DNA of 45,454 nt from Nitrospirales bacterium. GTDB taxonomy: Bacteria > Nitrospirota > Nitrospiria > Nitrospirales > UBA8639. Both the position numbers and the translations under genes were made by a program. The notes beneath the pieces were generated by a model. The model was not told the DNA's origin, did no database searches, and saw only the letters and a list, made by a program, of their open reading frames with translations. This document shows, piece after piece, positions 21,716 to 45,454 of the stretch; position 1 is the first letter of the stretch, and each line of letters opens with the position of its first letter. Location: assembly GCA_012270585.1 (NCBI GenBank), contig JAAXIB010000053.1, positions 1 to 45,454 of the forward strand, written 5' to 3'.

Positions 21716-24037
21716 ATGCTGAAGCTGACTGACCAGGAAAAGCAGGAGATCGTCCGGTATCTGGAAGCGGATAAGCCGTTGCCCGAGAAATATCGCTTTT
21801 TGCTGTTCGGGGACAAGCGCGAGGTGGAACTGGTCTGGAACGGCAAGAGCAACGAGGTTTGCAACATCGTTTTGCCGTTTCAGACTATTGAACAGGTGGA
21901 TGAACCGCGGGCGGAAAAGCCGTCTGATGCGTCCTTGCAGATAGGTCTGTTCTCGACGGACGAACGCGGGCGGCAACTCAAGGGCTGGACCAACAAACTC
22001 ATCTGGGGCGACAACAAGCTGATTCTGTCATCGCTCAAAAACGGACCACTGCGCGAGGAGACCGAAGCACAGGGCGGCCTCAAGCTCATCTACATCGACC
22101 CGCCCTTTGACGTGGGAGCCGATTTTTCAATGGATATTGAAATCGGCGACGACACCTTCACCAAAAAACCGAATATCCTTGAAGAAATCGCCTACCGCGA
22201 CACTTGGGGCAAGGGCGCGGATTCGTTTATCGCCATGATTTACGAGCGGCTGGTGCTGATGCGCGATCTGTTGGCTGAAAATGGGAGTATTTATGTGCAT
22301 TGTGACTGGCGGGTGAATAGTCATTTGCGGCTGGTACTTGATGAAGTATTTGGTGCTGGGAATTACCTCAATGAAGTCACCTGGCAGCGAACGAGCGCTC
22401 ACAGCGACCCAGGGCATTATGGGGTAAATATTGACTCCATCTTCTATTTTTCAAAGTCGGAGCGCCGAACATGGAATCAGCAATATGGTCAGCACTCCGA
22501 GGAGTATCAAAAAAGATTTAGAAACTCTGATGCTGATGGCCGTCCTTGGACAGATGCTGATTTAACGGCCAAGGGCCTCAGTGGTGGCGGATACAACTAC
22601 GAGTACAAAGGTGTTACCTCTCTCTGGCGTTGCCCGATTGAGACCATGCAGCGCTTGGATGAAGAAGGGAAGCTACACTTCACCAAAGCTGGTGGTATAA
22701 GGCTCAAACGCTATTTAGACGAGACACCGGGAGTCCCTGTTCAGACCCTTTGGTCGGATATTTTTCCAGTCAATTCGCAGGCCAAGGAACGAGAAAATTA
22801 CCCCACCCAAAAACCGGAAGCCCTGCTCGAACGCATCATCAAAGCCTCGTCCAACGAAGGAGACCTCGTCGCCGACTTCTTCTGCGGCTCCGGCACGACC
22901 GCCGCCGTGGCGGAAAAGCTGGGCCGCAAATGGATTTGCACCGATCTCGGCAAGTTCGCCATTCACACCACGCGCAAGCGCATGATCGGTGTGCAGCGGC
23001 AGTTGAAGGCCGACGGCAAGGACTATCGTGCCTTTGAAATCCTCAACCTCGGCAAGTACGAGCGCCAGCACTTCATCGGCATCAATCCAAGCCTCCGCGA
23101 AGAAGAAAAGCAGAAGCAGTTGCAGGAGAAAGAAGCGGCCTTCCTCGAGTTGATCCTTAAAGCCTATCGCGCAGAAAAAATAGAGCATTTTTCTGCCTTC
23201 CACGGTAAAAAAGCCGGGCGGCTGGTGTCGGTAGGGCCGGTCAATCTCCCCGTCACCCGCCTGTTTGTGGAAGAGATTATTCTGGAGTGCCGAAAGCATC
23301 ACATCACCAAGGTGGATATACTCGGCTTCGAGTTCGAGATGGGGTTGTTTCCCCACGTGCTGGACGAGGCGCGTTCCAAAGGGATTGATATCGCCCCCAA
23401 ATACATCCCTGCCGAGGTCTTCGACAAGCGGGCAGTGGAGAAGAACCAGGTGGTGTTCCACGACGTGGCCTTTATCGAAGTCAAACCGCACGTGCAGGCG
23501 GGCAGGAAGAAACAGCCCGCCAAGGTGGTGGTGGAACTCACGGATTTCTCGGTTTTCTACTCGCAGGATTCGATCGCCAACGCCGAGGCAGCCCTGTCGA
23601 CGAACACGAAAGCCGGCAGCAAGATTGTGGTGGAAAAGGGCTGGATTATGAAAGTGACCAAGGATAAGAACGGTGTCATGAAACGCGAGATATTGACCCG
23701 GCATTGGACGGACTGGATCGACTACTGGAGTGTGGATTTCGACTTTGAGAGCAAGCGCGAGATTATCCGCGTCAAAAAAGAAGAGCTTTCGCCGGATGCG
23801 CAAACGACCCTCGAAGGGATGGGCGATGCCCAGCAAAATTTGCCGGTCTGGGAAGAGCAGTGGACCGGCGACTACATCTTCGAGAACGAATGGCAGAGCT
23901 TCCGCACGAAGAAAGATCGCTCGCTGGAACTCAAAAGCGTCGCCCATGAATGCCCGTCCGGACGACGTAAGATTGCCGTCAAGGTCGTGGACATCTTCGG
24001 CAACGACACCATGACTATCGTGGAGGTGACGGCATGA
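21716..24037 (+). CDS. type III restriction-modification system, Mod DNA methyltransferase
   Basis: A 773-residue beta-class methyltransferase. The catalytic motif DPPF (residues 128-131, in LIYIDPPFDVG) precedes the SAM-binding FFCGSGTT (388-395), the order typical of type III Mod enzymes, which methylate adenine N6. The stretch between them, about residues 220-360, should be the target-recognition domain. It is visibly AT-richer than the flanks (22400-22790), consistent with domain exchange. The long C-terminal part (about 440-773) has the Mod-family segments LGFEFEMGLFPHVLDEARSK and HWTDWIDYWSVDF. GGAGG lies a few bases before the ATG. It overlaps the next gene by 4 bases (ATGA). Mod would set the recognition site for Res. 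Confidence 0.95.
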   Translation: MLKLTDQEKQEIVRYLEADKPLPEKYRFLLFGDKREVELVWNGKSNEVCNIVLPFQTIEQVDEPRAEKPSDASLQIGLFSTDERGRQLKGWTNKLIWGDNKLILSSLKNGPLREETEAQGGLKLIYIDPPFDVGADFSMDIEIGDDTFTKKPNILEEIAYRDTWGKGADSFIAMIYERLVLMRDLLAENGSIYVHCDWRVNSHLRLVLDEVFGAGNYLNEVTWQRTSAHSDPGHYGVNIDSIFYFSKSERRTWNQQYGQHSEEYQKRFRNSDADGRPWTDADLTAKGLSGGGYNYEYKGVTSLWRCPIETMQRLDEEGKLHFTKAGGIRLKRYLDETPGVPVQTLWSDIFPVNSQAKERENYPTQKPEALLERIIKASSNEGDLVADFFCGSGTTAAVAEKLGRKWICTDLGKFAIHTTRKRMIGVQRQLKADGKDYRAFEILNLGKYERQHFIGINPSLREEEKQKQLQEKEAAFLELILKAYRAEKIEHFSAFHGKKAGRLVSVGPVNLPVTRLFVEEIILECRKHHITKVDILGFEFEMGLFPHVLDEARSKGIDIAPKYIPAEVFDKRAVEKNQVVFHDVAFIEVKPHVQAGRKKQPAKVVVELTDFSVFYSQDSIANAEAALSTNTKAGSKIVVEKGWIMKVTKDKNGVMKREILTRHWTDWIDYWSVDFDFESKREIIRVKKEELSPDAQTTLEGMGDAQQNLPVWEEQWTGDYIFENEWQSFRTKKDRSLELKSVAHECPSGRRKIAVKVVDIFGNDTMTIVEVTA

Positions 24038-26649
24038 GCAATTGGAATTTCCCCGGGGCCAAGTGGTGGAAATTTGACTTTCATACACATACACCTGCTT
24101 CAGCGGATTTTAGAAAGCCGGCTATTACCTGTGAAGACTGGCTGCGTGATTATATGGAGAAAGGCGTTGATTGTGTAGCAGTCACGGACCATAACTGCGG
24201 TACGTGGATTGATAAACTCAAACGGACACTGGCAAAACTTGAGAAAGAAGACCCTGAATGGTATCGCCCCTTGTGTTTGTTCCCAGGGGTAGAGATTTCA
24301 GCCAATGGTGGCGTGCATATACTGGCAATCTTTGATCCTAGCAAAAAGACAGCGGACATCGATTCATTATTGGGTGCGGTAGGGTATCGGGGAAGCAAAG
24401 GAAAAAGTGATTCCGAGACTGAAAAGAGCATTACCAAGGTTATTGACACAATTGTGGAAGCAGGCGGCATTGCGATTCCCGCCCATGTAGATAGAGATAA
24501 AGGTTTGTTTTCTATTACGGGGCAATCACTCCAACAAGTATTGGCGAATTCTAATATTTATGCGATGGAGTTGTGCGATAAGGATTTTGCCAAGCCTGAG
24601 CTCTATAAATCTACCAAGACTGACTGGACCGAAGTCTGTGGATCAGACTTCCACGGCAAGCCGACAGATGTTTTCACTTGGGTAAAGATGAAGTCTCCTT
24701 GTATTGAAGGACTTCGCCTTGCACTTATTGATGGTGATGCCTCGGTCAATCGGGACATGGATGCAGAGCCAAACCGGCATGCGGAATATGTGATCGAAGA
24801 AATCACCGTTGAGGAAGCCAAGTATATGGGACGCCCCGAGGCTCTAACCTGTCAGTTCAGCCCTTTCCTTAATACTATTATGGGCGGACGAGGTAGCGGT
24901 AAATCCACTTTGCTGGAATTTATGCGCTTAGTTTTGCGACGAGAACAAGAATTGCCTGAACGACTCGAAGGTGACTATCGAGGCTATTTCAGCACGGATG
25001 AAGACGGATTACTAACAGAAGGTACTATCCTGCGCCTTGTCTATCGTAAAAGAGACACTCGCTATCGTCTCAACTGGGACGCGAATTTTGATGCAGCTTC
25101 ATTAGAAGAGCAGGATGAAGAAACAGAAGATTGGCGGGAGGCAGAGGGCGAAATCGCATCGCTGTTTCCGGTCAGTATCTATAGCCAAAAACAGATTTTT
25201 GAATTGGCAAGTGAACCACAAGGATTGCTGGGGGTCATCGACAGGGCACCAGAGGTCGGGTTTGATGAATACTACAGGGCATTTCAGGATTGCATCAACA
25301 GTTGCAAACAAATCCATCAACATGGTGAGCAACTGCAGCAGAAAATCTCCGAAGAGAGCAAATTAAAAGGGCAGTTGAATGACCTTAAACGACAGATTGA
25401 ACAGGTGGAAAAATCCGGACACAAAGATGCTCTGCAGAAATATCGCTTACGACAACAGCAGCTAAATGAGATTAAGTACGTTGAACAGCACTGGATGGAG
25501 TTTTGGAATAGCTTGCGCGAGGGATTAGCTGAGGCAGATGACGCATCAGTTGATGAGAATCTTTTTACTCAACATCCAGAGATATTGACCACGTTGCAAG
25601 ACAAACAACGTCAATGGCAACAGCAGATCAACCAAATATATAAGATTGCTGAAAGTCAGATAGAAAACGTGAAGCAATGGCAGGAAGAAAAGCAAAGGCA
25701 GCCGTGGATGAAGGCACTCCATCGGGATTTGCAACAGTACAGGCAATTACGCGAGCAATTGGAGCAACAAAGAATTGATCCGCAAGTCTATCCCGATTTG
25801 TTACAAAAACGTTCGTGGTTAGACAGAGAACTCCAGCAAATAAAAAGTTCTACACAACAAAGGGATAAATTAAGGGAACAATACGAATCGAAACGTTCAG
25901 ATGCGAAACGCCACCGTGAAGAATTGACGGAACGCCGAACGCGGTTTCTAGGGCGTGTTTTGCAGGGGAACCACTCAGTTCAGATTAGCATTGTCCCTTT
26001 TGCTGAGCCTTGGATGGAAATGGAGAAAACAATCAGGGAAATATTGCAGGTCGGGGATCGTTTTGACAAAGATATTGAGGCCCTGAAAGAGGTTATTGAC
26101 GAAGAGGGATGGGAGCAAGCAAAACGGCGGTTATTTGATATTCGAAATGGCAAGCAAATAGCCAAAGACGCTCGATTTCAGACACATTTAAAAGGCTTGC
26201 CAAACGAATCATTAATAGATCTGCAACTGTGGTTTCCGGAAGATGCCTTACAAATCACCTATGGGAAGAATGGCAAACGAATCCGTGAAGGTTCCCCAGG
26301 ACAAAAATCTGCGGCATTGCTGACATTTATTCTTGCTCATGGCGATGAACCTCTCCTGCTGGATCAGCCGGAGGATGATCTGGATAACGACCTTATTTAT
26401 AGTTTGATCGTCCAGGCCATCAAGGCTACTAAAACGAAACGGCAGATTATTATTGTTACCCACAATGCCAATATTGTGGTCAATGGCGATTCCGAAATGG
26501 TGCACTGTTTGAACGTGACGAACGGACAGTCGTACCTTACATCTGATAGCCTTCAATCCGAGGCCATCAGACAGCGTATTTGCGATACAATGGAAGGCGG
26601 CAGCAAAGCCTTTGAGCAGCGCTACAAGCGCATCCATCTGGAGAGTTAG
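24034..26649 (+). CDS. PHP phosphoesterase / SMC-like ATPase fusion (TrlF-like)
   Basis: An 871-residue protein. Residues 1 to about 240 are a PHP domain with its metal ligands: FDFHTHTP (His17, His19), TDHN (Asp51-His53), PGVEIS (Glu87) with GGVHI (His95), PAHVD (His151) and GSDFHG (Asp205, His207). Then comes a split ABC/SMC-type ATPase: Walker A GGRGSGKST (284-292), coiled coils at about 420-690, signature GSPGQKSAALLTFILA (from 753), Walker B PLLLDQPEDDLDND and the THNAN switch. NCBI names similar PHP-AAA proteins TrlF; I recall no firm function. It is coupled to mod (ATGA) and 2 bases from the next gene. A hand-counted row is about 45% GC, against 57% in res. It is probably a nucleic-acid-sensing effector or regulator of the R-M cassette (inference). 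Confidence 0.88.
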   Translation: MSNWNFPGAKWWKFDFHTHTPASADFRKPAITCEDWLRDYMEKGVDCVAVTDHNCGTWIDKLKRTLAKLEKEDPEWYRPLCLFPGVEISANGGVHILAIFDPSKKTADIDSLLGAVGYRGSKGKSDSETEKSITKVIDTIVEAGGIAIPAHVDRDKGLFSITGQSLQQVLANSNIYAMELCDKDFAKPELYKSTKTDWTEVCGSDFHGKPTDVFTWVKMKSPCIEGLRLALIDGDASVNRDMDAEPNRHAEYVIEEITVEEAKYMGRPEALTCQFSPFLNTIMGGRGSGKSTLLEFMRLVLRREQELPERLEGDYRGYFSTDEDGLLTEGTILRLVYRKRDTRYRLNWDANFDAASLEEQDEETEDWREAEGEIASLFPVSIYSQKQIFELASEPQGLLGVIDRAPEVGFDEYYRAFQDCINSCKQIHQHGEQLQQKISEESKLKGQLNDLKRQIEQVEKSGHKDALQKYRLRQQQLNEIKYVEQHWMEFWNSLREGLAEADDASVDENLFTQHPEILTTLQDKQRQWQQQINQIYKIAESQIENVKQWQEEKQRQPWMKALHRDLQQYRQLREQLEQQRIDPQVYPDLLQKRSWLDRELQQIKSSTQQRDKLREQYESKRSDAKRHREELTERRTRFLGRVLQGNHSVQISIVPFAEPWMEMEKTIREILQVGDRFDKDIEALKEVIDEEGWEQAKRRLFDIRNGKQIAKDARFQTHLKGLPNESLIDLQLWFPEDALQITYGKNGKRIREGSPGQKSAALLTFILAHGDEPLLLDQPEDDLDNDLIYSLIVQAIKATKTKRQIIIVTHNANIVVNGDSEMVHCLNVTNGQSYLTSDSLQSEAIRQRICDTMEGGSKAFEQRYKRIHLES

Positions 26650-26651
26650 CC

Positions 26652-27899
26652 ATGCTCAATGCCGCACAGATCCTCGAAAAGATACGCACCGGGGAAAATT
26701 CCGGAGTTGATTTCAAGGAAGTCCGTATCGGAAATGACAAAGTAACTGATCCTCGTCGCGACGATTTGTCGGATGACGTGGCAGCCTTTGCCAATCACTA
26801 CGGCGGCACGATTATTTTTGGCGTCGCAGATAAACCGCGCCAGATTATCGGCATTGATCCTTCAAAAATAACGATTTTGAACAGGTATATAAGCGAAATT
26901 TGTCGTGATTCCATTGTTCCCCCTGTTGTGTATTTTTATTTGGACAGCGTTCAGGTCGTAGATGAAGCAGGCGAAGACAAGTATCTGGTTTATGTAGAGA
27001 TTGAACGAAGTCTATGGCTGCATAAGAGTAAAAAAGGCTATTTATACCGGCATGGAGATAGCAATAGGCCAATGAGTTCGGAACATCTGCTGCGCGTAGG
27101 GCAAAGTCGATCTCAAGCAAGAATCATGCCTTTTGACGAACAGGCCGTACCCGGCACTGGAAAAGACACATTGCAAATTCCTTTCTATCAACGTTTTCTC
27201 AAAGAACATGTTTCGGATAGCGAGGCAGAAGAAATTCTGATCAAAAGACGCTTGCTGGTCAAAGATGACAAAGGTGACTTACGTGCATCTGTTGCAGGTG
27301 TCTTAATGTGTCACAATAAGCCCGATAACTATTTATACAATAGCTTCATTCAAGCGGTCTGTTATGGCGGCAAAACCAAGGATGCAAATTATCAACTCGA
27401 TGCCAAAGATTTCTCCGGAACACTCGACCAGCAAATAGTGGATGCGTTCAGTTTTGTTACACGTTACAACAAGGTGTCTGCTCGTAAGGAAGTGGGAAGA
27501 GAGGAAAAACCTCAATACAGTATGAGAGCGGTGTTTGAAGCATTGGTCAATGCAGTGGTCCACAGAGATTACTCCAAGCATGGTTCAAAAATACGACTGT
27601 TTATGTTTGCTGACAGGCTGGAAATTTATTCCCCTGGCGAGTTGGCAAACATGTTGACAGTGGACAGTTTGCCCTTCAATCAGGTAACTCGCAATGAAAT
27701 ACTGGCTCGTCTGCTTTCAGAGATCAAACTGGAGGATAGTATGGCAGGGAGGGCTGGAAGAGGGTATTTTCTTGAGCGTCGAGGCGAAGGCGTTGGCATT
27801 ATTTTAAGAGAAAGCGAACGATTAAGCGGGAAAACGCCTGTTTATAAGTTACTGGGTGAGGAATTGCTTTTGACAGTCTATGCCGCAGAGCCTCATTAA
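26652..27899 (+). CDS. AlbA_2 (Schlafen-like) domain / GHKL ATP-binding protein
   Basis: A 415-residue protein. The N-terminal AlbA_2 domain (about 1-150) shows GENSGVDFKEVRIG and AAFANHYGGTIIFGVAD, the pattern shared with Schlafen core domains. The C-terminal half carries the HATPase_c_4-type segment FEALVNAVVHRDYSKHGSKI with RLFMFADRLEIYSPGELA, followed by RNEILARLLSEI. Family members are usually called transcriptional regulators or ATP-binding proteins, but AlbA_2 domains are also found in defence proteins and in Schlafen nucleases. It lies 2 bases after the PHP-SMC gene and shares its lower GC, so the two probably arrived together. Nuclease activity is not shown by sequence alone. Confidence 0.87.
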   Translation: MLNAAQILEKIRTGENSGVDFKEVRIGNDKVTDPRRDDLSDDVAAFANHYGGTIIFGVADKPRQIIGIDPSKITILNRYISEICRDSIVPPVVYFYLDSVQVVDEAGEDKYLVYVEIERSLWLHKSKKGYLYRHGDSNRPMSSEHLLRVGQSRSQARIMPFDEQAVPGTGKDTLQIPFYQRFLKEHVSDSEAEEILIKRRLLVKDDKGDLRASVAGVLMCHNKPDNYLYNSFIQAVCYGGKTKDANYQLDAKDFSGTLDQQIVDAFSFVTRYNKVSARKEVGREEKPQYSMRAVFEALVNAVVHRDYSKHGSKIRLFMFADRLEIYSPGELANMLTVDSLPFNQVTRNEILARLLSEIKLEDSMAGRAGRGYFLERRGEGVGIILRESERLSGKTPVYKLLGEELLLTVYAAEPH

Positions 27900-27922
27900 A
27901 AACAGCATCAAACGAATATTCA

Positions 27923-30634
27923 ATGGCCCTCCATCCCGACTTCCCTCATTCCCCCCACACGATTCTCTACCCCGAACTTCGTTGGTTTCCCGCCGATGAA
28001 GCTCTGCGCGACACGACGATGGATAAGCTGATGCCGCCGATGGTGGCTGAACTTCGGCGCACGGTGAAGGACTTCCGCGATAACGGTTACGTGGGGGCGT
28101 CCGACACCAGCCGTAGCCTGCTCAATTGGTGGTTTAAGTCACCGCATCTGCTCCCGAGGACGGACGGCAGCATGGAGCATTTCGAATACTACTTCGCCCA
28201 ACGGGAGGCGATAGAGACAATTATTTATCTCTACGACGTTGTCGGTGCCAAGGACAAGTACGACCTGATGCGCTTCGACAGTAGCGGGGCGGTGTCGACC
28301 GGTATGTTCGATGAAACCTGGCGGCGCTACGTGATCAAGATGGCGACGGGCAGCGGCAAGACAAAGGTCATGAGCTTGGCCCTGGCGTGGAGTTTCTACC
28401 ACAAGCTCTATGAACCGGAGTCGGCGTTGTCGCGTAACTTTCTGATGATTGCGCCCAATATCATCGTCCTGGACCGGCTTTATCGGGATTTTCAGGGCTT
28501 GCGGATTTTCTTTACCGATCCGGTCGTTCCCGGAAACGGCTTCGACGGACGCAACTGGCAAGATGATTTTCAGTTGACCCTGCACAAACAGGATGAGGTG
28601 CGGGTGACGAGCTCTACGGGAAACATTTTCCTGACCAATATCCACCGGGTGTATGCCGGTGAGGACATCCTCCCCTCGTTCGACGACGAGAACACGATGG
28701 ATTACTTCCTCGGCAAGCGGCCCACGGGATCCACAACCGATTCCAGCGTCGATTTGGGGATGATCGTGCGAGACATTGACGAATTGATGGTGCTGAACGA
28801 CGAGGCACATCATATACATGATCCGCAGATGGCTTGGTTCCAATCGATTCAAGACATTCACAACCGGCTGCTGCAGAAGGGCAACGGCCTGAGTTTGCAG
28901 GTGGACGTGACGGCCACGCCCAAGCACAACAATGGTGTGATTTTTGTGCAAACCGTGGCTGATTACCCCCTGGTTGAGGCGATTTCCCAGAACGTGGTCA
29001 AGCATCCCGTACTGCCGGATGCCCCGAGCCGTTCGAAGCTACAGGAGTGGCAGAGCGCGAAGTTTACCGAGAAGTATGCGGACTACCTTGATCTGGGCGT
29101 AATTGAATGGCGTAAGGCTGACGAGGAGCACCGCAAACTGGGCAAGAAGGCGATCTTGTTTATCATGACGGATGATACGAGGAATTGCGACGAGGTCGCC
29201 GAGTATCTGGAGAACCGACATCCTGATCTGCAGGGCGGTGTGCTGACGATTCATACCAAGAAGAACGGGGAGATCTCAGAGGCTTCCTCCGGCAAAGCCA
29301 AGGAAGAGTTGGAGAAATTGCGCAAGCAGGTGAACGAAATCGACGATCCGGCAAGTCCGTACAAGGCCATTGTCTCGGTGCTGGTGCTCAAGGAAGGCTG
29401 GGACGTGCGGAACGTCACGACGATTGTCGGGTTGCGCGCCTATTCGGCGCAAAGCAATATCCTACCGGAGCAGACGCTGGGACGCGGCTTGCGCAGGATG
29501 TACCCTGGCGATGCAGAAGAGTATGTCAGCGTGGTGGGTACAAATGCTTTCATGGATTTCGTCGAGTCTATCCAGGCCGAAGGTGTGGAATTGGAACGCA
29601 AGGCCATGGGTGAAGGTACGGGACCGAAAACGCCGTTGGTGGTAGAGGTTGATAAGGAAAGTAACCAGAAAAACATTGATACGCTGGACATTGAAATTCC
29701 GGTGCTCACGCCGCGCGTTTATCGGGAATACAAAAACTTGGCCGCTCTCGATGTCGGCGCGATGGAGTTTCAATCGTGTGATTACCGGCAATTCAGCGAA
29801 GAAGAGCAACGCGAGATTGTGTTCAAGGCCATCACCACCGGCGAAGTGACCCACACGACCATCCTACATGGCACAGGAGTTGCCGATTACCATAGTGTGA
29901 TCGGCTATTTCGCGCAGACGGTGATGAAGGAACTGCGGTTGGTGAGCGGCTACGATGTGCTGTACGGTAAGATCAAAAGTTTCGTACAGGACAGGTTATT
30001 TGCCCGATCAGTTGATCTGGAAGCACCCAACACCCTGCGGAATCTTTCAGAAGGAACTGCGACTAAGACCTTGATCGAAACGTTCAAGAAAGCGATCAAC
30101 GATCTGAGCGTGCGCGACAAGGGCGATGCGGAAATCCGCGACATCATCAAACTGCGCCGGACGCGGCCCTTTGTGGTGAAAAATCAGAGCTACGTGATGC
30201 CGAAGAAGTCGGTGTTTAACCGGATCATTGGTGACAGCCGTTTTGAGTTACAATTTGCCGACTTTCTTGAGCAGTGCAGCGATGTGGTTTCCTACGCGAA
30301 GAACTACCTGGCGGTGAATTTCAAATTGGATTACGTCAAAGCCGACGGTGACCTCTCGAATTACTACCCGGATTTCATTGTAAAATTGACCGACGGTCGC
30401 GTGGTGATTGTGGAAACCAAGGGGCAGCAAGATCTGGATGTGCCGTTAAAGATGGACCGCCTGCGCCAATGGTGCGAGGACATCAACAAGGTGCAGACTG
30501 AAACGGACTTTGGCTTTGTTTTTGTGGATGATACGGGGTTCGAAAAGTATCAGCCAATGACCTTTGAGGACCTGTTCACGATCTTCAGAGCATACAAGCC
30601 CCATTCTACCGAACGCACGAGTTCCTCCATTTAG
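27923..30634 (+). CDS. type III restriction endonuclease, Res subunit
   Basis: A 903-residue SF2 helicase-nuclease. Walker A is ATGSGKT (141-147), DEAH box NDEAHHIHD (293-296), motif III VDVTATPKHN, motif VI LPEQTLGRGLRRMYP. The C-terminal PD-(D/E)xK nuclease is YYPDFIVKL (Asp817) with VIVETKG (Glu831, Lys833). All catalytic elements are present, so restriction is probably active with Mod. The gap from the AlbA gene is 23 bases without a clear ribosome site, so translation may depend on read-through from upstream genes. The frame ends near an unusual AT-rich array. Confidence 0.94.
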   Translation: MALHPDFPHSPHTILYPELRWFPADEALRDTTMDKLMPPMVAELRRTVKDFRDNGYVGASDTSRSLLNWWFKSPHLLPRTDGSMEHFEYYFAQREAIETIIYLYDVVGAKDKYDLMRFDSSGAVSTGMFDETWRRYVIKMATGSGKTKVMSLALAWSFYHKLYEPESALSRNFLMIAPNIIVLDRLYRDFQGLRIFFTDPVVPGNGFDGRNWQDDFQLTLHKQDEVRVTSSTGNIFLTNIHRVYAGEDILPSFDDENTMDYFLGKRPTGSTTDSSVDLGMIVRDIDELMVLNDEAHHIHDPQMAWFQSIQDIHNRLLQKGNGLSLQVDVTATPKHNNGVIFVQTVADYPLVEAISQNVVKHPVLPDAPSRSKLQEWQSAKFTEKYADYLDLGVIEWRKADEEHRKLGKKAILFIMTDDTRNCDEVAEYLENRHPDLQGGVLTIHTKKNGEISEASSGKAKEELEKLRKQVNEIDDPASPYKAIVSVLVLKEGWDVRNVTTIVGLRAYSAQSNILPEQTLGRGLRRMYPGDAEEYVSVVGTNAFMDFVESIQAEGVELERKAMGEGTGPKTPLVVEVDKESNQKNIDTLDIEIPVLTPRVYREYKNLAALDVGAMEFQSCDYRQFSEEEQREIVFKAITTGEVTHTTILHGTGVADYHSVIGYFAQTVMKELRLVSGYDVLYGKIKSFVQDRLFARSVDLEAPNTLRNLSEGTATKTLIETFKKAINDLSVRDKGDAEIRDIIKLRRTRPFVVKNQSYVMPKKSVFNRIIGDSRFELQFADFLEQCSDVVSYAKNYLAVNFKLDYVKADGDLSNYYPDFIVKLTDGRVVIVETKGQQDLDVPLKMDRLRQWCEDINKVQTETDFGFVFVDDTGFEKYQPMTFEDLFTIFRAYKPHSTERTSSSI

Positions 30635-37856: not shown

Positions 37857-39108
37857 CGTTCCCTCTGTTCCGCCCCGTAGAAAGTATGCCTGGGCGTTGA
37901 TCGAGGGACAGATGGAGCCGCTATAACCGCCGCCGATGCAGGAATAAACAAGCTTCCCTTTTGAGGATCGTACTGGCTACGTCCGCTAACAATCTCATTT
38001 CCAATCCGTTCGTTGAATGCTCGGACTGCCTCCATTGCAGGCACTTCGCCGAACAGGCTCGCCATGATTTTCTGCATTTCTTCTAAATCGCACCCCGCAA
38101 CCAGCCGCTCAACCTTTTGCACGAGGGTTCCAAGATCTCTGATGAATAGCTCCTGATCCTGTCGCGTTCTGGCCAGCGGTCGGTCAGTACATCCTCTGTA
38201 CATACCGGATTGACAATATGAACGAGTCGGCCTTGGTTGTGGGCTTGCTGGAAAACGGAGAGCATATACTTCGCTTGGAGAAGCAACTCCTCGGATAAAC
38301 GGTCTGTATGGTTGGCTGCATCGGCCACAAGTTTCGCGATCATAATCGATGGTGGACGTCGTCCCGATCGTGTGTCATACTGCACGTTGCGCCACCGCTT
38401 CAGGAGTTGCAGCACGATGACGGCTTTCGATTTCCTTAACGGCGGCTCCTGTGGAGGAACGGAATCTCTGGCCGCCTCCGCCAATATGTGCAGTCGTTCA
38501 TATTCCTCGACGCGCTTCTCAAAGATGTCGGCAAAGGCATCGTCTGGCGGCGTGTTGTTCTTAAACCATTCAGCGAAACCATAAGGGTTTGCGATAAGTC
38601 GGCGGCTTGGCTCCTGTGGTGTGTCTGGTCGGTGGTGGAATATCCAACTTTGACGTTCCAGGGTGCCCTTCATGCGCAACGCTGGCGTAACGTCAAGGTG
38701 CATGTTGTCGTCGTAATCGACGGTGACACAGCGTGTTCTGCGCTTTGTTTTCGAGTAGTACCGGGACCCAGGCTCTCCGCGAATCGCCTCATACAGCAAG
38801 TCGAGGGATTCCCGTGGTGATACGTTGAGCGGCAGAGCAAGTTGAGCGACCACATCAACATCGAACTCATCGGTTTTCAGTTTCGAGGTGATGGTTGTAC
38901 CAATCGCCATTGACCCTTGCGGGTAGAATAACTCGACGCGATCTTTCAATGGGCTCTCGTCACGCTCGATCCAATCGTTGATTGTCTGGTAACGTTGCAC
39001 AGCTTTGTCATAGTCCGTTCGGCTGAGTTGAACACGGATTGCAACGTCGGCCAGTAGGATATCTGCAGGGTCAGTGAGGGGTGGTCGCAATGGATTTATC
39101 TTCGTCAT
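37853..39108 (-). pseudogene. CD-NTase (DncV-like cyclase) of CBASS, one frameshift near the C-terminus
   Basis: The catalytic half is intact: GSMAIGTTI (Gly65-Ser66), DEFDVDVV (Asp83, Asp85) and HLDV (Asp139), the three metal-binding Asp of DncV-type enzymes. The frame is good through HIVNPVCTEDVLTDRWPE. A -1 shift near 38170-38180 moves the rest (QDQELFIRDLGTLVQKVERL, AGCDLEEMQKIMASLFGE) to another frame, ending TPRHTFYGAEQRER. Both parts together give about 418 codons, a normal length. Without the shift the enzyme would lose its C-terminal helices and the Gly-containing tail that E2 would modify. It could be real decay or a sequencing indel. Confidence 0.85.
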
Positions 39109-39193: not shown

Positions 39194-40276
39194 ATGATAG
39201 GAAAAAGGGTTAAGCTGGCTCGCTCTGCATCAGGTCTTTCTCTTAGAGATTTGGAAGAGAGAATTGGAAACCGTGTCACGGCTCAGGCAATCGGGAAGTA
39301 CGAGCGCGACGAATCGATGCCCGGTTCCGATGTCTTGATCGCGCTTGCCGATGCGCTTGATGTCTCAGTGGACTATCTGGTCGGCGACCAGGAAATAGTC
39401 CTCGAAGCAGTGGAGTTCAGGAAGAAGACGATCACGAGCAGACGGGAGGAATCCCAAGTTGAGGCCAAGGTCCTGCACTTTCTGGAGCGTTACCTCATGG
39501 TCGAGGAATTGCTCCAGCTTCCGAGTGTCGAATGGCACAGTCCGCGTGAGGCACCCTACCCCGTGCATGCCGTTTCGGAGGCCGACCACGCCGCCCGAAG
39601 CCTTCGGGATCATTGGGGCCTTGGCAACGACCCGATCCCAAACCTCGTCGAGTTGCTGGAGGAGCAGGGGATCAAAGTTCTTGCCGTCGATCTGACGAAT
39701 ATCGATGGCCTGACGGCTCGCGTCCATCGGGCAGGAAAAGCCACAGTGCCCGTCATTGTGGTGAACCGCAAGGAATGGGGAGAGCGTCAACGCTTTACAC
39801 TGGCCCATGAGCTTGGACACTTGGTTATGGACGTGGCGGCCAAAGTGGACGAGGAGAAGGCCACACATCGCTTCGCCGGCGCCTTCCTGATGCCTGCCGA
39901 GGCTCTGTGGGCAGAGATCGGTAAACACCGCAGGGCGATCGGTTGGGAAGAGCTTTTCGCGTTGAAGCAACTCTTTGGCTCGAGTGTTCAGGCGATCACG
40001 TATCGCTGCAAAGATCTTGGCATTTTCAGTGCGGCCACGTTCCGGCGGCTGTTCAATGACTTCAATCGGTTCGGGTGGCGCAGTCCACCATACGAAGAGC
40101 CATACGCCAGAAAAGGCGAGGAGCCGAAGCGTTTCGAGCGTCTCACGTTCCGTGCTCTTGCTGAGAGAGCCATTTCCGAAGCCAAGGCGGCGGAATTGCT
40201 CGGCATTTCGGTGCAGGAGCTAAATCGGCGGATGGAAGAACCGCCGGCTGATGAACACAAGGGGGCTGGGACCTGA
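39194..40276 (+). CDS. XRE-family HTH / ImmA-IrrE metallopeptidase fusion
   Basis: A 360-residue protein. Residues 4-62 are an XRE HTH (GKRVKLARSASGLSLRDLEE, KYERDESMPGSDVLIALADA). The middle is an ImmA/IrrE peptidase domain with the zinc motif HELGH (205-209) in RFTLAHELGHLVMD and FAGAFLMPAEAL. The C-terminal part (RALAERAISEAKAAELLGIS) holds another short helix-turn-helix-like region. A GAGGG ribosome site is 7 bases upstream. It is divergent from CBASS across an 11-bp inverted repeat and 5 bases from a PIN gene. It could be the antitoxin of that PIN protein, or a fused equivalent of the CapH (HTH) and CapP (peptidase) regulators known from other CBASS loci. Confidence 0.88.
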   Translation: MIGKRVKLARSASGLSLRDLEERIGNRVTAQAIGKYERDESMPGSDVLIALADALDVSVDYLVGDQEIVLEAVEFRKKTITSRREESQVEAKVLHFLERYLMVEELLQLPSVEWHSPREAPYPVHAVSEADHAARSLRDHWGLGNDPIPNLVELLEEQGIKVLAVDLTNIDGLTARVHRAGKATVPVIVVNRKEWGERQRFTLAHELGHLVMDVAAKVDEEKATHRFAGAFLMPAEALWAEIGKHRRAIGWEELFALKQLFGSSVQAITYRCKDLGIFSAATFRRLFNDFNRFGWRSPPYEEPYARKGEEPKRFERLTFRALAERAISEAKAAELLGISVQELNRRMEEPPADEHKGAGT

Positions 40277-40281
40277 GTCGC

Positions 40282-40785
40282 ATGCAGCAGGTACTGGTCT
40301 CCGACACCTCTGTTCTGATTGATCTCAGACGTGGATCCCTGCTGGAAGCCAGCTTCTGCTTGGCGTTCCGATTCGTCGTCCCTGACCTGCTCTACGAGCG
40401 CGAATTGAAGAACTGGGGTGGAGAGGACTTGATACGATTAGGCCTCGTCGTCGAGCAATTGGATGGCGACGGTGTAAGCCTAGCCTTGGCCTACCGGAAG
40501 CGAATGCCCGCCCTTTCGCTTCCCGATTGCTTCGCCCTCGCCCTCGCGCAAATCCGTTCTTGGATCCTGTTGAGCGGTGACAGTGCGCTCAGTCAACTTG
40601 CGAGCGATGAGATGGTCGAGTACCACGGCGTGCTCTGGCTTCTCGACAAAATGCACGATGCTGCCGTGGTGAGCATCCGAGAACTGTACGACGGTTTGAC
40701 CGCTATTGCGGAGCATCCACGCTGCCGTCTTCCAAAGCCCGAAATCCGTCGCCGTTTGGCCTGCTACAACGACCGTCTGCGTTAG
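40282..40785 (+). CDS. PIN-domain protein, probable toxin
   Basis: A 167-residue PIN-fold protein: VSDTSVLIDLRRGSL (Asp8), the acidic ER-E segment near 39-41, SLPDCFALALAQ (Asp82) and LLSGDSALSQLA (Asp100) give the expected acidic quartet of a Mg-dependent RNase. It starts 5 bases after the XRE-ImmA stop, so the two form an operon. It resembles the stand-alone PIN proteins that pair with HTH-ImmA antitoxins. The C-terminal helical extension (about 120-167) is unassigned. Confidence 0.82.
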   Translation: MQQVLVSDTSVLIDLRRGSLLEASFCLAFRFVVPDLLYERELKNWGGEDLIRLGLVVEQLDGDGVSLALAYRKRMPALSLPDCFALALAQIRSWILLSGDSALSQLASDEMVEYHGVLWLLDKMHDAAVVSIRELYDGLTAIAEHPRCRLPKPEIRRRLACYNDRLR

Positions 40786-43492: not shown

Positions 43493-43605
43493 CCGCCTTT
43501 GCCTGGGCTCTCACGTCAGATGCCCGAGGCTCTGTGCCTGTATCAGTCCCCACGAGTATGTGCGTGACTATCCGCTGTCAACAGTACCTAATTCGACCTA
43601 TCCAC

Positions 43606-43633
43606 TTGACAATCATCGCTCCTACGCTACAGT
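43606..43633 (+). promoter_or_regulatory. sigma70-type promoter upstream of the HTH-methyltransferase
   Basis: TTGACA (43606-43611) and TACAGT (43628-43633) with a 16-base spacer, about 33 bases before the ATG at 43666. An AAAGGAATTTAAGAG ribosome site follows. Confidence 0.6.
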
Positions 43634-43665: not shown

Positions 43666-45231
43666 ATGATACAGGAAGATACAGGAACTTCTGAGATTCT
43701 TACTCGCGCCGAGGCTGCGGCGTTTATTCGGGTCAGTGAAAAGACGCTTGGGGAGATGGCTCGGACCCGACGGATTCCATCACAGAAGGTAGGGAGGGAG
43801 TGGCGCTTTTTGCGTAGCGCACTTGAGGCTTGGCTGGTTGGAAAAGGCGTTCGTGATGACAATAGACGGATGGAAGCTGTCGTCCACGAGCAACCGGCCG
43901 TTGCCGAAGCGGTGGTGCAATACCAACTGCCGATCTCGGACTTTCGCGATACGGCTTTTTCCGAAAATCACGACCAGACCCTGCATCGTTGGACCCCCTG
44001 GATCGCTGGATTTTCTGGATCGTTTGTCGCCGGGGTGCTTGCAGGCGTGAGACGTGAGCGGCGGCGGTTGCGGGTTTTGGATCCGTTTGCCGGCGTCGGC
44101 ACGACGTTGATCGAAGCCCTCAAGTATGAATGCGATGCGACCGGATTTGAGATCAATCCGTACGCGGCGTTGGCATGTAAGGCAAAAGCCCAAGCTGCTC
44201 ACTATGATACAGACATACTGGCAGCAACGCTCGACCGCTTCGAAGAATACGGTGAGGAAAAACTGTCGCTTGCCGAAAGGGCTGCGTCTCTTCCTCCCAA
44301 GGGTTTTTCAAGCCGTGTCCCGTTTTTCAGTCCGGAGGTGGAGCGGCAAGTTCTGATGTGTCAGGATTTTATTGCGCAAGAAACGACGGGTTGGGTCACG
44401 GACTTGTTTCAGGTGGCTTTCGGAGCCGTCATGGTAAGTTTCTCGAACTACTCATATGAACCGAGTCTTGGAACGCGGGCTGGTGCGGGAAAGCCCAACA
44501 TCGACCATGCCGATGTGTTCAGCATTGTGAAGCGCAAGTTGCGCGAAATGCACGAGGATATCGTCACGTTCCAAAGGTGGATGAGCAAATCCAAACGCGC
44601 GCCGGAAGCAACGGTGTATCCCCTGTCATATTTGGACCATGCCCGGCGGGTTAGACCGAACAGTATCGACGTGCTCATCACCTCGCCTCCATATCTCAAC
44701 AACTATCATTATGTTCGCAACACGAGGCCGCATTTGTTCTGGCTCGGGATGGTGCAGACATCATCAGATCTGAAGACCATTGAACACAAGAGCTTCGGTC
44801 AATTTTGGCAGACGGTTCGGTCCGGACCGGAGGTTGCCTTACGGCCACACCTGCCTCTTTTAGCAGAACAACTCGAAGACCTCAGGTCACGCCACGCGGA
44901 AAGAGGTGCCTATGGCGGTCGCGGGTGGGCGAACTACGCCGCGACCTACTTTAATGATTGTCAGAGCTTTTGCACTCTCACACGAACCCGTATGCGGCCT
45001 GGAGGGAAGGTCGTCGTTGTCATCGGCAACAACATTCTGCAAGGCATAGAGTTTCAGACGGACAAGCTGTTTGCCGAGATTGCGGAACAAGAGGGATTTG
45101 AGATCGTCGCGCTGCATGAAGTGCGCAAGAAGCGCACGGGCAACAGCATCGTGAACTCGTCGGTCAGGAACGGGACGGTGACCCAGCGAACGCGATTATA
45201 TGAAACCGCGGTTGAGCTTCGGGCGCCTTGA
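43666..45231 (+). CDS. excisionase-type HTH fused to DNA methyltransferase
   Basis: A 521-residue protein. Residues about 10-60 are an excisionase/MerR-like HTH (LTRAEAAAFIRVSEKTLGEM, RRIPSQKVGREWRFLRSALE). After a linker comes a methyltransferase: SAM-binding LDPFAGVGTTLIEAL near residue 141 and ATGFEINPYAALACKAKA, then the catalytic SPPYLNNYHYVRNTRPHLFW near residue 343. SPPY is typical of N4-cytosine (or some N6-adenine) methylases. No restriction enzyme follows before the window ends. It could be an orphan methylase, or part of an R-M system whose partner lies outside. The HTH may target or autoregulate it. Confidence 0.85.
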   Translation: MIQEDTGTSEILTRAEAAAFIRVSEKTLGEMARTRRIPSQKVGREWRFLRSALEAWLVGKGVRDDNRRMEAVVHEQPAVAEAVVQYQLPISDFRDTAFSENHDQTLHRWTPWIAGFSGSFVAGVLAGVRRERRRLRVLDPFAGVGTTLIEALKYECDATGFEINPYAALACKAKAQAAHYDTDILAATLDRFEEYGEEKLSLAERAASLPPKGFSSRVPFFSPEVERQVLMCQDFIAQETTGWVTDLFQVAFGAVMVSFSNYSYEPSLGTRAGAGKPNIDHADVFSIVKRKLREMHEDIVTFQRWMSKSKRAPEATVYPLSYLDHARRVRPNSIDVLITSPPYLNNYHYVRNTRPHLFWLGMVQTSSDLKTIEHKSFGQFWQTVRSGPEVALRPHLPLLAEQLEDLRSRHAERGAYGGRGWANYAATYFNDCQSFCTLTRTRMRPGGKVVVVIGNNILQGIEFQTDKLFAEIAEQEGFEIVALHEVRKKRTGNSIVNSSVRNGTVTQRTRLYETAVELRAP

Positions 45232-45454
45232 ATTATCGCGCCTGTGTACCAATCTCCCACCAGCTTTCTCTCGCGGGATCAGGCAATCCAGTAGTGTCTC
45301 AGTTTGAATTTCCCTTTCCGCAGCAATGTCCTTTTTTGTCATCCTCGACACTTGTCCCCGACTTGATCGGGGATCCAGGCAATCTACAAGAATCCAGTGT
45401 CTTTGCTTTTTCCTTCGAGTGGAAAGACAAAAAACTCTGGATCCCCGTCGGGGT
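45232..45454. repeat. dispersed palindromic repeats at the window end
   Basis: No gene. Units seen are gtcatcctcgacacttgtcc, a ccccgactt gatcgggg hairpin (about 45356-45372) and a closing ctggatccccgtcgggg, all of the family present at 1-430 and 15500-15680. Confidence 0.7.

Follow-up and report, generated by a model that had tools for sequence, protein, structure and literature searches.

An excisionase-type helix-turn-helix fused to a predicted m4C methyltransferase in Nitrospirota, probably the orphaned modification enzyme of an Eco29kI-type restriction-modification system

HTH-methyltransferase gene and its product

The window, i.e., the whole stretch of DNA that was analyzed (45,454 nucleotides, contig JAAXIB010000053.1 of a Nitrospirales bacterium, assembly G000), contains close to its end a gene encoding a DNA methyltransferase with an N-terminal helix-turn-helix (HTH). 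It is preceded by a promoter and followed by the remnant of an endonuclease gene and a dispersed repeat (Table 1).

Table 1. Coordinates in the window of the HTH-methyltransferase gene and of the features around it.
Feature	Position	Strand	Basis or remark
Sigma-70-type promoter TTGACA-16-TACAGT	43606..43633	+	1 site found vs 0.4 expected in shuffles
Probable ribosome-binding site AAAGGAA	43651..43657	+	Kept within the genus
HTH-methyltransferase gene	43666..45231	+	Single ORF, 521 aa, ATG start; alpha-class amino-MTase, M.DraR1 type
HTH_17/excisionase-type domain, aa 12-57	43699..43836	+	Pfam and NCBIfam profile matches
Loosely constrained linker, about aa 58-92	43837..43941	+	dN/dS, pLDDT
AdoMet-binding motif VLDPFAGVGTTL, aa 137-148	44074..44109	+	Alignment of 12 rows
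Catalytic motif TSPPY, aa 339-343	44680..44694	+	Invariant in 12/12 alignment rows
Endonuclease gene remnant, last six codons (IGTQAR) and stop	45233..45253	-	Comparison with L034-L038 and L040
Dispersed repeat, MITE-like, about 20-bp inverted ends	45291..45454	.	At least 49 genome matches including itself; ends the contig

The N-terminal domain matches Pfam HTH_17 (aa 12-57; E 1.7e-11, 44.6 bits, cut-off 27) and, over the same residues, NCBIfam TIGR01764 "excise" (34.2 bits, cut-off 28.8). A partial match to Pfam N6_N4_Mtase was found at aa 137-167 (30.3 bits, cut-off 26.7), and the top PADLOC type II methylase profile spans aa 97-496 (8e-29). The Pfam and NCBIfam matches, together with TSPPY, confirm what an earlier reading of the letters alone (hereafter, the sequence-only reading) had claimed, namely an excisionase-type HTH at the N-terminus of an SPPY methylase. 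Residues D139, P140, G143, G145, T146, and T147 of the AdoMet-binding motif are invariant in the 12 aligned rows. The motifs are ordered DPFAGVGTT, a long middle region and TSPPY; an AdoMet motif placed before SPPY corresponds to the alpha class according to the M.DraR1 paper (PMC6712171; here and below, papers are cited for their available passages).

AlphaFold gave a usable model of the methylase body (mean pLDDT 74.6, pTM 0.74), with pLDDT below 50 at aa 55-87. The HTH region was unreliable in both models, made with 14 and 11 close sequences; two long helices appear in the second one (pTM 0.47). Foldseek against PDB returned generic methyltransferase folds, with one match at E <= 0.001, and comparison of the HTH with PDB sequences gave no significant match (best E 0.18, RdfS, 8dgl).

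Distribution and conservation of the fusion

Homologues were searched in the contigs of named genomes by one scan with six short peptides, which found 14 loci and will miss distant relatives, and a further survey was restricted to Nitrospirota (395 genomes). The 14 loci comprise seven Nitrospirota genes, two of Candidatus Binatia, one of a spirochaete and four without HTH. The seven Nitrospirota genes are full-length matches (91-93%), present in seven of the 13 same-genus relatives searched apart from the window, and those of Candidatus Binatia have the HTH and show 82-83% identity. The collection of homologues with the same fusion, as proposed by the sequence-only reading, thus yielded intact genes in 10 genomes of two phyla: eight Nitrospirota of one genus (the window's included) and two Binatota. 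Loci without HTH (L041, L042, L044, and L045) belong to two Entotheonella (70-72%) and to one Gemmatimonadota and one Planctomycetota (59%). The spirochaete gene has a recognizable HTH (70% over 47 aa) and a reading frame broken by frame changes, for which sequencing errors are possible, the genomes being mostly MAGs.

Among the eight Nitrospirota genes (28 pairs), mean dN/dS was 0.113 in the HTH (aa 1-62), 0.551 in the linker (aa 63-92) and 0.105 in the body. Between Nitrospirota and Binatota, the HTH gave 0.049, from the 13 of 16 pairs that could be used, and the body gave 0.069, from 16 pairs. No stop codon interrupts the fusion reading frame in the 10 genes, and the start codon of the Binatota genes is shifted by one codon into the gene relative to Nitrospirota. 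The methylase tree requires two changes of the HTH label, with a single change in 11% of 200 bootstrap trees. Since the deeper branches of this midpoint-rooted tree are all without HTH, the headless methylase is probably the ancestral form.

Endonuclease gene in relatives and in the window

An Eco29kI-type GIY-YIG endonuclease gene is adjacent to the methylase gene and convergent with it in eight of the 10 intact HTH-bearing genomes (six of the eight Nitrospirota and both Binatota, with the longest ORFs taken as neighbor genes). The stop codons of the two genes are separated by 1 bp in seven of these cases and by 4 bp in L035. In L034 and L036, the endonuclease start is about 195 bp from tRNA-Val, which leaves little room there for a separate C-protein gene. 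The four endonuclease proteins scanned match PF09517 with E-values of 2e-56 to 3e-59. That of L036 aligns with the solved R.Eco29kI (E 1.6e-41) and keeps residues matching Y49, Y76, R104, H108, E142, and N154, the six active-site residues of this enzyme (PMC1952068); the mapping uses a numbering offset of 21 that is our own interpretation, and position 142 is Q in the PDB chain used for the alignment.

Across 59 relatives, PF09517 was found in nine, one of which (G049) has no methylase match of the window's family. Headless methylases are paired with such endonucleases in both Entotheonella genomes, in G002 and in G051, and also at the methylase matches L070-L073; the G051 endonuclease has only 147 aa, and the L071 and L072 enzymes align in a similar way. 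The Gemmatimonadota, Planctomycetota, and spirochaete genomes gave no PF09517 match. In the record of the haloarchaeal virus HJTV-2, a single gene separates an annotated methylase from an annotated Eco29kI endonuclease, and the two viral contig stretches that matched the search pattern do not encode a relative.

In the window, the remnant sits one base from the methylase stop codon and corresponds to the endonuclease C-terminus of relatives (IGTQAG in L036, IDTQAR in L038), and the sequence past it diverges from all relatives. The sequence-only reading reported no nuclease up to the window end, which is literally true, yet six codons and the stop codon from the 3' end of a nuclease gene can still be read there. 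Its suggestion of a restriction-modification (R-M) origin is supported by this 3' remnant and by the partner endonuclease in relatives. No PF09517 endonuclease was found elsewhere in the window's assembly. Judged by sequence comparison, the endonuclease gene was lost in the window's lineage, leaving an orphan methylase and not a complete system.

The contig stops where the window stops. Contig C76 of the same assembly (4,808 bp) opens with the opposite end of a repeat of this kind, followed by tRNA-Val and thrS; its first 12 bases match neither the C17 nor the C58 copy. Because the two halves of the repeat adjoin in other copies (2 bases apart in C17 and C58, 56 in C22), the window contig and C76, which are separated by an assembly gap, probably meet within one repeat copy. 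The copy at C17:33039-33266 has about 230 bp and inverted ends, and the repeat also ends C76.

A separate endonuclease loss was found in G012, where about ten codons are left and the place is taken by an insert of about 7.6 kb that encodes a type I methylase and specificity proteins. HTH and methylase are intact in both endonuclease-less genomes. G009 is without the system, yet it has an HTH piece (78% over 32 aa) some 300 bp upstream of thrS. The R-M locus is flanked by a Fis-type gene and tRNA-Val(GAC)-thrS (G000:C76; L034:8350-8424), with the type I genes lying there in G012, and this site may be an integration hot spot.

Upstream regions of the methylase and endonuclease genes

The promoter ascribed to the methylase gene by the sequence-only reading was found (Table 1), and its -35 block CTTGACAATC (43605-43614) is identical in the 10 intact HTH-bearing genes of Nitrospirota and Binatota, 61-65 bp before the start in all of them. 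None of the 12 headless loci checked has this block, and neither does the spirochaete locus, where the broken copy has a recognizable HTH. Upstream of the methylase gene, 53 of 99 columns are invariant across eight genomes versus 89 of 196 fourfold sites, which is barely above fourfold-site conservation, except for the -35, -10, and ribosome-binding cores.

We read the endonuclease promoter as TTGACA-17-TACCGT, with TGCCGT as last hexamer in L036. Its core shows 37 of 39 columns invariant in six genomes versus 106 of 203 fourfold sites, and the spacer contains the palindrome TTCGTACGAA, exact in four of these genomes and with one mismatch in the other two, which is not kept in Binatota. From this pattern of conservation, the endonuclease promoter may be constrained by something beyond a bare promoter. 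No operator common to the methylase and endonuclease promoters was found in eight genomes, where shared 7-mers were scattered, two at most per genome, and no word recurred in several genomes. No CCGCGG lies near the endonuclease promoter. A methylation-sensitive promoter was also considered and rejected: among the 10 genomes, CCGCGG is found within 700 bp 5' of the methylase start only in L043 (-442).

Predicted chemistry and target of the methylase

The closest characterized relative of the window methylase is M.DraR1 of Deinococcus radiodurans (43% identity over aa 89-518); the aligned plasmid gene is M.DraR1, since the 10 residues named in its paper are all at the stated positions. Both proteins have in common the residues around TSPPY and a SNYSYEPSLG block. 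M.DraR1 makes m4C at the second C of CCGCGG, according to SMRT sequencing and knockout, and methylates 667 of the 696 CCGCGG motifs of its genome (95.83%; PMC6712171), while R.DraR1 cuts CCGC/GG (PMC10855626). In this last paper, from 2024, the putative CCGCGG systems of REBASE are given as 310 m5C and three m4C, and its available passages report no V, C, or H elements seen in the m4C systems; neither "HTH" nor "helix-turn-helix" came up when its main text was searched for these terms. Because of the core shared with M.DraR1 and the Eco29kI-type partner in sister genomes, the window methylase is predicted to make m4C at CCGCGG, and its gene is probably the methylase gene of a DraI/Eco29kI-type CCGCGG R-M system, orphaned here.

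Counted on samples of 119 to 443 kb, not on whole genomes, CCGCGG is not avoided in four HTH-methylase genomes (observed/expected of 0.98 in G000, 0.90 in G012, 0.97 in G010, and 0.96 in G005); values were 0.84 and 0.88 in G009 and G001, which are without the methylase, and 0.54 in the headless carrier G002. The lack of avoidance is a null result, which neither supports nor excludes m4C at CCGCGG. In the 119-kb sample of G002 (L166-L171), GGGCCC (0.05) and CCCGGG (0.18) are almost missing and both below CCGCGG. Furthermore, CAGCTG is strongly under-represented (0.09-0.35) in six of the seven sampled genomes (G000, G012, G010, G005, G009, and G001), a shortage possibly left by a system cutting CAGCTG that acted on these genomes over a long time.

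Comparison with known systems and role of the HTH

R-M systems must make the methylase before the nuclease. Antisense promoters, as in Eco29kI, are one timing route. Separate C-proteins are another known one (PMC12255303), and separate C and M genes are the subject of PMC2890505.

The DraI methylase, M.DraR1, has the same motif order and conserved blocks as the window methylase, and R.DraR1 is of the same GIY-YIG/Eco29kI family as the sisters' endonuclease (PMC10855626). However, M.DraR1 has 434 aa and no HTH whereas the window methylase has 521 aa with HTH, and the DraI endonuclease is encoded at the 10th ORF upstream (PMC10855626), whereas in the sisters the endonuclease gene lies next to the methylase gene and faces it, and in the window it is absent. 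In relation to Eco29kI, the sisters' endonuclease belongs to PF09517 and keeps in L036 the six active-site residues; while the 310 systems mentioned above are m5C, the window methylase is of the predicted m4C type.

A single chain with an N-terminal HTH of about 60-70 aa, a flexible linker and a methylase is likewise found in M.SsoII and M.Ecl18kI, where residues 1-71 contain an HTH on a flexible linker that inhibits the methylase gene and activates the endonuclease gene (PMC3978073; PMC3695355). SsoII is an m5C enzyme, with an HTH resembling C-proteins and the phage 434 repressor, whereas an HTH_17 is joined here to an SPPY-type amino-methylase. As its methylase domain is of this type and not m5C, the window methylase is not a member of the SsoII-like regulatory methylases, but by analogy it may work like them. 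The same HTH class as in the window is found in Mad1 (NF047737), the small HTH protein of the methylation-associated defence system MADS, whose profile gave 42.2 bits against aa 10-57 of the window methylase, below the curated cut-off of 80. Mad1 is encoded by a separate gene, whereas the HTH of the window is part of the methylase chain. A literature search for MADS gave, among the matches listed, unrelated work only.

We consider it probable on balance that the gene encodes the modification enzyme of a Type II R-M system of the DraI/Eco29kI kind, whose endonuclease was lost here, and that the HTH is most likely a built-in transcriptional controller. This reading starts from the fusion and its conservation, the sisters' endonuclease with six active-site residues, and the 3' scar, all of them observed. 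The methylase would put m4C on the second cytosine of CCGCGG and so shield these sites from the GIY-YIG endonuclease encoded tail to tail downstream, whose gene would have been lost in the window's lineage down to six codons, orphaning the methylase. The HTH, on its loose linker, would bind a promoter of the system (that of the methylase, that of the endonuclease, or both) and would couple the amount of methylase to the expression of both genes, in the manner of the unrelated HTH of M.SsoII/M.Ecl18kI. Self-repression or substitution for a controller protein, both proposed by the sequence-only reading, is our best idea for the role of the HTH. Against this explanation count the lack of a common operator, the methylase upstream region being little more conserved than fourfold sites apart from its cores, the spirochaete copy with HTH and without CTTGACAATC, and the headless relatives, Entotheonella among them, which keep the endonuclease without any HTH. 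It is also weakened by the intact HTH and methylase after endonuclease loss in two genomes, by CCGCGG not being avoided (0.90-0.98), and by the AlphaFold models, none of which is usable for the HTH.

Most HTH_17 proteins are excisionases or small regulators with sequence specificity, which counts against an HTH that only gives non-specific or local DNA affinity (or oligomerization) to aid the methylase, with no regulatory role. The missing shared operator, the HTH being retained in the window and in G012 although the endonuclease is gone, and a constraint on the HTH equal to that on the enzyme all favor such an aid; but headless relatives do without it and M.DraR1 reaches its 667 of 696 motifs with no HTH (PMC6712171), so that we regard it as rather unlikely.

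It is also unlikely that the orphan methylase is already drifting with no present function. Its endonuclease is lost, its body has five non-synonymous and eight synonymous window-specific codons, and some endonuclease-keeping sisters are lower in non-synonymous changes (non-synonymous/synonymous of 0/9 in L034 and 1/14 in L037); however, other such sisters show similar body counts (4/9 in L036, 4/4 in L040, and 5/12 in L038), and the HTH of the window has no non-synonymous and two synonymous specific changes in an intact frame.

The sequence-only reading had further proposed that the HTH directs methylation to particular sites. Although the gene is kept as an orphan in two genomes, steering to a subset of sites, or an epigenetic program outside R-M, is quite improbable: the Eco29kI-type partner of eight of the 10 intact cases demands full methylation of all sites, and M.DraR1 recognizes CCGCGG alone and methylates 95.83% of its motifs with no HTH (PMC6712171).

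Finally, the idea that the fusion is a gene-calling artefact, with the true start near residue 69-93, can practically be dismissed: the HTH-less homologues that the sequence-only reading would take as a sign of it, with a start near residue 75, do exist (four of the 14 loci, M.DraR1, G002, G051, and others), but the fusion stands because 10 genomes from two phyla have an intact HTH, which evolves under purifying selection next to a relaxed linker, with no stop in the 10 frames and with promoter, ribosome-binding site, and start codon conserved 5' of the HTH in the eight Nitrospirota genes.

If the built-in controller is real, the joining of HTH_17 to a methylase of m4C type would have given rise to one by a separate evolutionary route, besides C-proteins and the m5C HTH-methylases of SsoII type, and the headless relatives would be natural minus-HTH controls. 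The m4C-type CCGCGG systems, three in REBASE (PMC10855626), would extend to probable members in Nitrospirota, Binatota, Entotheonella, and a haloarchaeal virus record. Furthermore, two genomes show nuclease loss with methylase retention, one of them with a six-codon scar.

A second HTH_17-methylase fusion

Another HTH_17-methylase fusion was found in the same genus, in G009 (L058 4256-5830; HTH_17 2.1e-12). It shows 21-24% identity to the window methylase and is convergent with a NotI-family endonuclease gene (PF12183, 5.5e-14), the pair spanning L058:4256-6797 (G009:C1:166000-184000). Among the related methylases, 37 locus rows corresponding to about 29 distinct genes, the HTH was detected only in the G009 gene by a home-made HMM, which was built largely on Nitrospirota HTHs and may miss others; six of them were rescanned with Pfam and have no HTH_17. 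The weak mutual similarity suggests that the two fusions are independent, in which case HTH_17 would have joined this methylase class at least twice. Among the matches listed by a literature search, no title or abstract start reported an HTH fused to an m4C methylase. As a tentative proposal, somewhat less likely than not, alpha-class amino-methylases of one Nitrospirota genus would have captured HTH_17 at least twice, in CCGCGG/Eco29kI-type and NotI-type pairs, giving "controller-methylases" that protect the genome and time the convergent endonuclease, possibly via TTCGTACGAA.

Other defence-like genes in the window

Upstream of the methylase gene, the window contains other genes of this kind. 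Positions 21716-30634 (+) encode an amino-methylase of large size (N6_N4_Mtase) and an SMC/AAA-like ATPase, with a ResIII helicase one ORF further, which together look like another multi-gene defence system. Near the methylase gene, a SMODS/DncV-like nucleotidyltransferase gene (38083-39108, -; Pfam 3.3e-15) may serve in CBASS-type defence. Positions 39194-40785 (+) encode a protein with an HTH and an M78 peptidase domain (RmrA/spr1629-like), and directly after it a protein whose match to a PIN domain is weak and does not reach the cut-off, a toxin-antitoxin-like pair. The HTH-M78 peptidase protein has relatives in L037 and L038, and its weak-PIN neighbor has one in L038.
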